From an uncultured bacterium (GTDB lineage: Bacteria > Cyanobacteriota > Vampirovibrionia > Gastranaerophilales > Gastranaerophilaceae): a DNA stretch of 64,000 nt. Below the pieces are notes generated by a model, which saw nothing but the letters and a program-made list of their open reading frames with translations, was not told where the DNA came from and searched no databases. Within the stretch, counting starts at the first letter, position 1, and each line of letters begins with the position of its first letter. This document shows positions 41,840 through 64,000 of the stretch, in pieces. The position numbers were made by a program, and so were the translations under genes. The stretch lies in contig CACWHC010000008.1 of NCBI GenBank assembly GCA_902760645.1, positions 1 through 64,000 of the forward strand, written 5' to 3'.

Positions 41840-43408
41840 ATGGATTTCATTACTTTAATGACAGTAATAGGAGCACCGGTGCTCATACTGTTGGCACTGC
41901 TGATTTTTATTGCAAATCAGTACAAACGTTGTCCGTCAAACAAAATTATCGTAGTTTACGGTAAAACAGGCGGTGATAAGACTGCAAAATGTGTTCACGG
42001 AGGCGGTACTTTTGTCATTCCGCTTATCCAGGATTACGGTGTTTTGTCATTAGAACCTATGACTACCGACATTGATTTGAAGGGTGCACTTTCAAAAGGT
42101 AATATCCGTGTTGCCGTACCTTCAACATTTACTTTCGGTATTTCAACTCACGAAAATATCATGATTAATGCGGCAGAAAGACTGTTAGGATTGACTAAAA
42201 ACGAAATTATAATTCAGGCAAGTGATATTATTCTCGGTCAATTACGTTTGGCTATTGCTACTTTGACTATTGAAGAAATTAATCAGGACAGAGAAAAATT
42301 CCTGGAGCAAATTAATGCAAACGTTAATACCGAGCTGAATAAAATCGGGCTTGAAATTATTAACGTAAATATCAAAGATATTACCGATGAATCCGGCTAT
42401 ATTGATGCAATAGGTAAAAAAGCAGCAGCGGAAGCTATCAATAAAGCTAAAGTTGAAGTTGCTCAACAGGAAAAACTCGGTGCTGTCGGTGAAGCGGAAG
42501 CTAATAAAGAAAAAGAAGTTCAGGTTGCCGAACAAACCGCACAAACTTTAATCGGGAAAACTAATGCGGAAAAAGAACAGCGTGTACAAACTGCGAATAT
42601 TAATTCATCTGCTGTTATAGGTGAGGCTGAAGCTGACAAAGTGAGAGAAGTTCAGGTTGCTGAACAATTAGCACAAACTCAAATCGGTAAAACGGAAGCT
42701 TTAAAAGAACAGCGTATTCAAACAGCTAATTTAGAGGCTCAGGCAGTCGAAGGTGAAAATATTTCAAAAGCGAATATTGCAGAATATAATGCAACATTAG
42801 CGGTAAAACAGGCTGATGCGTTCCGTGAAGGGGAAGTCGCAAAGGCAAACGCTCAGCGTGATGTATTATTAGCTCAGAAAGAACAGGAAGAAGCTAAATT
42901 AAAGAAGGAAGAACTTGCAAGACAAGAAGTTGAAAAACTTAAAATTCAGGTTCAGGCTGATGCCGAGGCTGAAAAAGCAAGACGTATCGCATTAGGTGAA
43001 GCTGATGCAATTAAAGCTAAATACTTTGCGGAAGCTGAAGGTGTGAAAGCTGTTCTTGAGGCTAAAGCAAAAGGTTATGAAGAACTCGTTAAAATCAGTA
43101 ATAACCGTCCTGAAATTGCTACAAGCTTCCTGATGATTGAAAAAATTGAAGATATTGTTGCAAAACAGGTTGATGCAATTAAAAATATCAAATTTGACAA
43201 GATTACTGTTTGGGATGGCGGAGCAGGTTCCTCAAACGGTTCTACAACGGCAAACTTTATGAAAGATTTGATTAAAGCACTTCCTGCTATGCATGATTTG
43301 GCTAATCAGGCAGGAATAGAATTGCCGCAGATTTTGGGTAAGGTTGACAGCGGTATTGATGTAACTCCCGTATCTGCCGGTAAACCTGAACACAAAGACA
43401 AAAAATAA
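41840..43408 (+). CDS. Flotillin-like protein (SPFH/band-7)
   Basis: A 522-residue membrane-associated scaffold protein. A hydrophobic N-terminal helix (about 5-27) leads to the PHB/SPFH domain (about 28-190). The long flotillin coiled coil (about 190-430) has repeated EA-rich units, including twice a VREVQVAEQ/KEVQVAEQ-type unit followed by AQTxIGKT. The tail is Gly/Ser-rich. Flotillins organise membrane microdomains with NfeD-type partners. AAGGAG precedes the ATG. A terminator follows. Confidence 0.93.
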   Translation: MDFITLMTVIGAPVLILLALLIFIANQYKRCPSNKIIVVYGKTGGDKTAKCVHGGGTFVIPLIQDYGVLSLEPMTTDIDLKGALSKGNIRVAVPSTFTFGISTHENIMINAAERLLGLTKNEIIIQASDIILGQLRLAIATLTIEEINQDREKFLEQINANVNTELNKIGLEIINVNIKDITDESGYIDAIGKKAAAEAINKAKVEVAQQEKLGAVGEAEANKEKEVQVAEQTAQTLIGKTNAEKEQRVQTANINSSAVIGEAEADKVREVQVAEQLAQTQIGKTEALKEQRIQTANLEAQAVEGENISKANIAEYNATLAVKQADAFREGEVAKANAQRDVLLAQKEQEEAKLKKEELARQEVEKLKIQVQADAEAEKARRIALGEADAIKAKYFAEAEGVKAVLEAKAKGYEELVKISNNRPEIATSFLMIEKIEDIVAKQVDAIKNIKFDKITVWDGGAGSSNGSTTANFMKDLIKALPAMHDLANQAGIELPQILGKVDSGIDVTPVSAGKPEHKDKK

Positions 43409-62756: not shown

Positions 62757-62757
62757 A

Positions 62758-62834
62758 GGATTTTCTGACCGGTAAAATCCGGAGTGTGAGAGCCGAAACT
62801 AAGTGAGTGGCAGGCTTGAGCATTAAGAAAATCC
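62758..62834 (+). promoter_or_regulatory. Structured rpoA-rplQ spacer
   Basis: GGATTTTCT (62758-62766) pairs with AGAAAATCC (62826-62834), a perfect 9-bp outer stem. Inside, CCGG/CCGG (62769-62772 with 62779-62782) and GAGCC/GGCTT form smaller stems. The rpoA stop lies two bases before the outer stem. Confidence 0.5.
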
Positions 62835-62890
62835 AAAGTAATAAAATCCAAAACATAATAAAAATATAAAAATATAAAGGAAAAACAAAA

Positions 62891-63323: not shown

Positions 63324-64000
63324 TTGATTAGATATGCTTTAAGAGTTCAGTATATCGGGAAAAATTATGCAGGAAGTCAGCTTCAGTTAGAAAAAGGCAA
63401 ACCTGTCAAAGGATTACCGACTATACAGGGTGAACTTGAGAAAGCACTCAGTACTTTGATAAAAAATAGCGTAAGCCGGTGTGAGCCGGAGTTGGATTGT
63501 CGAATGACAATCCAAGCAGGGCGAACACAACGATGCCGCCGTTGCGACCGAAGTGAAAACGGAGGGAGCGAAGCAATCTGTGATTGCACAGGCGGAATAA
63601 AAGGCGTAAGCCGGTGTGAGCCGGATGAAGCTAAAAAATACAACCGACCGATAAAGGCAATCTTCTCCGGAAGAACCGACAGAGGTGTGAATTCAAAGGG
63701 ACAAATTGTTCATTTTGATGCAGAGGAACCAATTGTTGCTTCAAAGTTTCTTTATCAAATGAATGAAATATTACCTGATGATATTTCTGTTGATGAACTT
63801 CGAAAAGTCGATGAGAATTTTCATGCTCAAAAGTCTGCAGTCAGTCGTTATTACAGGTTCGAGTTTGTTAATAGAAAATGTAAAAACGCATTTGACGGTG
63901 ATTTATTAAGGGTTAAATACCCGATAGATATAGACAGAATGCAAAAATCTTTGAATTATTTGCTGGGCGAACATGATTTTTCAAGTTTTAAAAGTTCCGG
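63324..64000 (+). CDS. truA: tRNA pseudouridine synthase A (3' end outside window), with in-frame insertion
   Basis: The gene starts at TTG 63324, 4 bases after rplQ, and runs off the window after 225 codons. TruA makes pseudouridine at tRNA positions 38-40. IRYALRVQYIGKNYAGSQLQ, TIQGELEKALSTL and the catalytic IFSGRTDRGVNSKGQIVHFD segment are typical. Between EKALSTLIKN and the GRTD motif there is an extra 45-codon stretch bounded by two identical 22-bp direct repeats. The frame is kept, so the protein is probably functional but with a surface insertion. Cys- and Arg-rich composition in the insert is unlike the rest. Confidence 0.9.
   Translation, partial: MIRYALRVQYIGKNYAGSQLQLEKGKPVKGLPTIQGELEKALSTLIKNSVSRCEPELDCRMTIQAGRTQRCRRCDRSENGGSEAICDCTGGIKGVSRCEPDEAKKYNRPIKAIFSGRTDRGVNSKGQIVHFDAEEPIVASKFLYQMNEILPDDISVDELRKVDENFHAQKSAVSRYYRFEFVNRKCKNAFDGDLLRVKYPIDIDRMQKSLNYLLGEHDFSSFKSS
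63469..63625 (+). repeat. Repeat-bounded insertion within truA
   Basis: Two identical 22-bp direct repeats (63469-63490 and 63604-63625) are 135 bases apart, exactly 45 codons. Between them lies a perfect 10-bp inverted repeat (63492-63501 with 63506-63515) and GAGGGAGCGAAGCAA sequence resembling the spacer repeats. Confidence 0.8.

Follow-up and report, generated by a model that had tools for sequence, protein, structure and literature searches.

The best-documented case of a small repeat that frequently enters conserved genes in frame comes from Rickettsia, and in heterocyst-forming cyanobacteria the RNase P RNA gene carries STRR sequences, which are short heptanucleotide tandem repeats. 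The Rickettsia palindromic elements (RPE) are 105–146 bp long and dispersed, and they occur in intergenic regions, in frame in conserved protein genes, and also in the RNase P RNA gene (Ogata et al., reviewed in PMC2229807, PMC10969869). Bacterial MITEs (Correia/NEMIS, ERIC, and RUP) are non-autonomous repeats of 100–200 bp that have structured transcripts and are sometimes fused to ORFs (PMC2229807). Some REP elements are found no more than 15 nt from a stop codon and are able to stall ribosomes (PMC12306157). The insert described here resides in the truA gene of an uncultured Gastranaerophilaceae bacterium and, judging from its sequence homologues, is one copy of a previously uncatalogued, dispersed, RNA-like structured repeat of about 133 nt that belongs to the Gastranaerophilales.

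The window, a stretch of 64,000 nucleotides from contig CACWHC010000008.1, ends within truA, which starts at a TTG codon and extends beyond the window end (Table 1). A 317-codon stop-to-stop frame is open across both copies of the 22-mer GCGTAAGCCGGTGTGAGCCGGA, whose starts are 135 bases apart. With up to 3 mismatches allowed, the 20-base core of the 22-mer matches the window at two places only (100 shuffles expect 0.00), and a 23-mer around it has no third match within 3 mismatches anywhere in the 1.96-Mb genome. The insert has a G+C content of 55%, compared with 35% for the window, encodes six Cys residues in its 45 codons, and contains a perfect 10-bp inverted repeat (TTGGATTGTC-GAAT-GACAATCCAA). 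The removal of one unit from truA yields IKNSVSRCEPDEAKKYNRPIKAIFSGRTD, the same form that is found in a sister species (G007; IKNSASRCEPDDASKYSRPIKAVFSGRTD), and a search of 12 other genomes of the genus found the 135-bp unit in none of them. A sequence-only reading of this DNA had described identical 22-mers 135 bases apart and in frame within truA, a Cys/Arg-rich insert with a 10-bp palindrome before the GRTD motif, and a normal-looking TruA upon removal of one unit, and had suggested a comparison of TruA orthologues; each of these descriptions is confirmed, and the orthologues of the same genus lack the unit.

Table 1. Positions in the window of truA, of its insert, and of the structural elements of the repeat.
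Feature	Position	Strand	Basis
truA (tRNA pseudouridine synthase A), 5' part	63324..64000	+	ORF; orthologues in 55/57 relatives; PDB matches to TruA
135-bp unit (45 codons), start of left 22-mer to start of right 22-mer	63469..63603	+	missing from same-genus TruA
Left 22-mer, 5' end of the element	63469..63490	+	identical-repeat search
Right 22-mer, where a second, truncated unit begins	63604..63625	+	repeat search and tandem-layout survey
Full-length structured repeat copy, covariance-model bounds (133 positions)	63467..63599	+	model positions 1-133; 126.5 bits, a score not independent alone because this copy sat in the seed alignment of the model
Variable hairpin, 10-bp arms and GAAT loop (helix 3)	63492..63515	+	stem differs between copies by compensatory substitutions
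Conserved three-way junction (helices 4-7)	63536..63595	+	consensus fold from alignment
Closing stem of the three-way junction, CCGCC with GGCGG	63536-63540 with 63591-63595	+	
GNRA-type hairpin GT-GAAA-AC in the three-way junction	63553-63560	+	
Junction hairpin, GCAATC with GATTGC	63573-63578 with 63582-63587	+	

When the insert is used as a query against its own genome (G000), weak matches appear at unrelated places, in GC-rich stretches of the same layout that adjoin rplC, groEL, and other genes. A profile built from six copies recovered more copies in neighbouring species, and a covariance model built on a 16-copy alignment finds nine copies in the genome of the window and copies in 19 of 57 relatives, with a maximum of 26 per genome; frame-profile matches are present in 129 of 383 family genomes. 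Copies from other genomes, which are independent of the window copy, align to it. No Rfam match covers the elements in a permissive cmscan of 12 copy-carrying loci, and a search of a limited literature collection found nothing relevant on such repeats in Gastranaerophilales or Melainabacteria. The sequence-only reading had regarded the insert as derived from a repeat, which the dispersed homologues bear out, and within the genome the 22-mer is private to truA; what that reading missed is that the repeat as a whole is not, being found also in other genes, in intergenic regions, in rnpB, and on a phage contig.

We infer that the element is mobile. A RAYT-type Y1 transposase (PF01797) was not found in the copy-carrying genomes G000, G003, G012, G018, G020, and G024, and a reverse transcriptase was not found in the genome of the window; both were rejected as the present mobiliser, as neither is found there. 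Annotated phage records gave no element match. The IMG/VR phage contig IMGVR_UViG_3300012150_000157 (L336) carries an element at 1148–1284 (−), overlapping the end of an ORF, together with an amidase gene, and is a possible vehicle of the element between hosts. In G020, several copies (loci L163–L167, L180, and L185) lie just upstream of paralogous pilin-like genes with an N-terminal methylation motif, and appear to have been amplified along with this gene family; the adjoining ORFs were considered as transposases and rejected, as the genes are pilin-like. The TruA proteins of three records labelled Muribaculaceae, Brachyspira, and Fusobacterium (L051, L113, and L119) group with those of Gastranaerophilales, and these records are probably mislabelled or mixed bins.

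The copies share one fold, a candidate new Rfam family, which was assessed on a separate 50-copy sequence alignment. Compensatory changes on both sides of the pair are found in 20 of the 32 base pairs, and 95.5% of the cells are paired, compared with 82.4% in shuffled and 31–39% in slid alignments; the covariation score of 0.393 (0.154 shuffled) is reached by 0 of 500 shuffles. The compensatory changes preserve the helices of the element, and the folded single strand is therefore under selection. The element lacks terminal inverted repeats: in the consensus fold, its 5' terminus is unpaired and its two ends do not pair with each other.

Judged from published descriptions, the nearest analogues of the element are RPE and the Wolbachia protein-coding palindromic repeats (PMC2229807, PMC10969869). 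RPE and the Gastranaerophilales element are similar in size (105–146 bp and about 133, respectively), are dispersed, occupy both intergenic and in-frame sites, have copies in the RNase P RNA gene, and are without a known mobilising enzyme; the likeness lies in the nine copies of one genome and the spread to 19 of 57 relatives, in the in-frame copies in several unrelated genes, and in the rnpB copies. In contrast to RPE, the element has a hairpin and a three-way junction instead of terminal inverted repeats, belongs to another bacterial phylum, is strongly biased to positions just after stop codons, and forms in-frame tandem units of 135 bp; it is RPE-like in behaviour and is not classed as RPE, because the defining inverted termini are absent. 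MITEs resemble it in being of this size, non-autonomous, and structured, but their defining terminal inverted repeats are absent from the element, and no clean target duplication is seen at leuS or rfbD. STRR sequences are likewise a repeat insertion in rnpB within the same phylum, but consist of heptanucleotide repeats rather than a structured 133-nt unit. REP/BIME with RAYT are also structured repeats, some of them directly after the stops of co-transcribed genes (PMC12306157), but the Gastranaerophilales element is much longer, has a more complex fold and in-frame gene copies, and resides in a genome without a Y1 transposase.

In-frame copies of the element are also present in rfbD, leuS, a radical-SAM gene, a pabB-like gene, and a NIF3-like gene (rfbD, leuS, and the NIF3-like gene were identified by reading their sequences, without a Pfam scan). 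The truA event is therefore not unique and is part of a wider pattern. The truA and radical-SAM copies share one reading frame of the element (SRCEPEL), and the rfbD and leuS copies share another. Among 46 congeners, the leuS site is filled in 4 and empty in 42, and a comparison of filled and empty leuS and rfbD sites reveals altered host codons beside the element. The leuS frame of G272 (L261, 1135–3108, −) carries a second, different repeat-like in-frame insertion, EPCHCEEERSDDAAIQNNTGLLRFARNDE, in the same LeuRS, which resembles a peptide that translation of another common bacterial repeat often yields. A 527-codon frame in L284 (G132:C6), probably encoding a phage or replication protein, contains two tandem element-derived segments of 43 codons.

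The placement of the element was counted over 76 non-redundant copies that score at least 60 bits and lie outside sense ORFs. A co-oriented upstream gene is present for 60 of the 76, and 41 of these 60 start within 8 nt of its stop codon; among intercistronic copies, which have genes on both sides, 39 of 54 start no more than 8 nt after the upstream stop, compared with 12.8 expected for uniform placement. Ribosomal-protein genes are common among the upstream genes, an enrichment that partly reflects sampling, because truA, around which the first loci were chosen, itself lies in such an operon. Other copies lie inside rnpB, as Rfam RF00010 spans the element in three loci (L246, L224, and L242). 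Most copies contain stops in every sense frame (means of 1.7, 1.9, and 3.1), and the antisense frames are more open. All gene-internal copies recognised are in the sense orientation; the two peptide-profile searches are able to find sense copies only, and the strand-blind model searches found no antisense copy in any recognisable gene. Sense-only copies within genes suggest that the process is strand-specific or that selection acts on the RNA.

The excess of copies behind stop codons (39 of 54), the sense orientation, and the conserved fold would also suit an element that is chiefly a regulatory RNA, exerting REP-like control of termination, mRNA stability, or operon processing, with the in-gene copies as strays; REP elements in such a position are capable of stalling ribosomes (PMC12306157). 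This role is possible, if on balance unlikely, as the presence of the element at a given site is patchy among congeners, a pattern more typical of a parasite than of a fixed regulator. It concerns the family, and is compatible with the mobile-repeat account of truA. In the window, the gap between rpoA and rplQ contains a GC-richer stretch (62757–62836) directly 3' of the rpoA stop, with TCCGG/GTGTGAGAGCCG motifs and no model match, which is perhaps another or a decayed repeat. The gap between rpsD and rpoA in L102, L107, L111, and L118 contains a different GC-rich repeat-like sequence (TAGCGCGAGTGAGCTGAGGGC...) that starts at the rpsD stop codon, and sequences behind stop codons may turn over quite generally in these operons.

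The insert lies close to residue 40 of E. coli TruA, in the loop that precedes the catalytic GRTD motif. The sequence-only reading had proposed modelling it on the TruA structure, and in an AlphaFold model that covers the 225 window residues of TruA, the insert is predicted with pLDDT values of 41–51 and almost no regular structure, between helix 34–52 and strand 113–115. Between two loci with a decayed element (L060 and L068), the insert has a dN of 0.143 and a dS of 0.229, compared with 0.007 and 0.095 for the rest of truA. The insert is most likely a tolerated, rapidly evolving, unstructured surface loop, presumably neutral for TruA, in agreement with the earlier view of a housekeeping enzyme that tolerates a repeat-derived segment before GRTD with its frame intact. 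In the TruA tree, the full inserts (window, L049, and L051) and the decayed pair L060/L068 are placed separately. The nesting of L060/L068 among relatives whose loops are short and clean speaks against one ancestral truA insertion for all clades; the same TruA loop was probably invaded more than once, the alternative being many independent losses.

The element thus occupies the same loop in three or more lineages, and this loop could be selected beyond being merely permissive. Full or decayed elements at this position in several separate clades, and a Cys/Arg-rich frame that remains open, would agree with an insert that was recruited as a useful extra loop of TruA and other enzymes, for example in RNA or partner binding, and was hence kept. 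Recruitment is nevertheless improbable, given the fast evolution of the insert protein between L060 and L068, the repeated shrinkage to a scar in sister species, and the invasion of unrelated enzymes in two frames of the element.

A partial or full second unit trails 12 of 80 copies and is clearly missing from the others, which identifies tandem duplication as the source of the direct repeat; for the same reason, the idea that terminal direct repeats belong to the element itself was rejected. The TruA proteins of the sister species G007, G004, and G003 contain a short solo scar only (an SRCEP-type peptide), and rfbD carries two units and a partial one in G263, compared with one unit and a partial one in its close relative G311; all of these genomes are draft assemblies, in which unit counts may be collapsed. 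The scars and the rfbD difference show that units are lost and gained in 45-codon steps, as had been anticipated for the truA unit, and because 135 bp is a multiple of three, gain or loss keeps the truA frame. We infer a corresponding history of duplication for truA. For the close relative G012, an apparent remnant of the element body in TruA was dropped as not significant (p 0.085). A second duplicated segment of the window (42488–42757) is a 132-bp tandem repeat in coding sequence, with 2.0 copies and a 74% match.

Local tandem duplication within truA, with no mobile element involved, would fit two identical 22-mers that have no other match in the genome, and it still explains the second, partial unit. 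As a full account it is refuted by the dispersed homologues, since the whole 135-bp unit has relatives of the same fold at unrelated places in its own and other genomes, and it is very improbable. An assembly error or chimera at the repeat in a draft genome is hardly credible, even though short repeats are a classic cause of misassembly, as the independent assemblies L049 and L051 have the element at the same truA site, the unit-plus-partial layout is seen elsewhere, and the frame is kept, while the exact unit number could still be collapsed.

With a probability of roughly 85%, the truA insert is a small, structured, apparently non-autonomous mobile repeat that was tandem-duplicated in a permissive TruA loop and is of no use to the enzyme, with selection acting mainly on the folded RNA or single-stranded DNA. 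A copy of the element would have landed in this loop in the sense orientation and in a stop-free reading frame, and tandem duplication would then have left a full unit with the initial 22 nt of another behind it. Units of 135 bp could be added or removed, with truA kept in frame, when copies arranged head to tail recombine or slip, and the sister species would have lost the unit and retained the short SRCEP-type scar. The insert would form a surface loop that gives TruA nothing useful and evolves quickly, whereas selection on the element would operate mainly through the folded RNA or single-stranded DNA, with its helices kept by compensatory changes.

A bolder and rather doubtful proposal sees in the family a mobile, structured RNA or single-stranded DNA with strand-specific insertion where translation terminates in highly expressed operons. 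Its mechanism would differ from those of known small repeats, and its in-frame landings would feed 45-codon modules into essential enzymes. The family provides natural experiments, with full, solo-scar, and empty alleles of one gene and with one or two units in close relatives, and its strong bias towards sites directly behind stop codons can be put to the test. If in-frame invasion has a second system, apparently unrelated to the first, among gut bacteria of the cyanobacterial phylum, it would mark a more general route to new protein segments.
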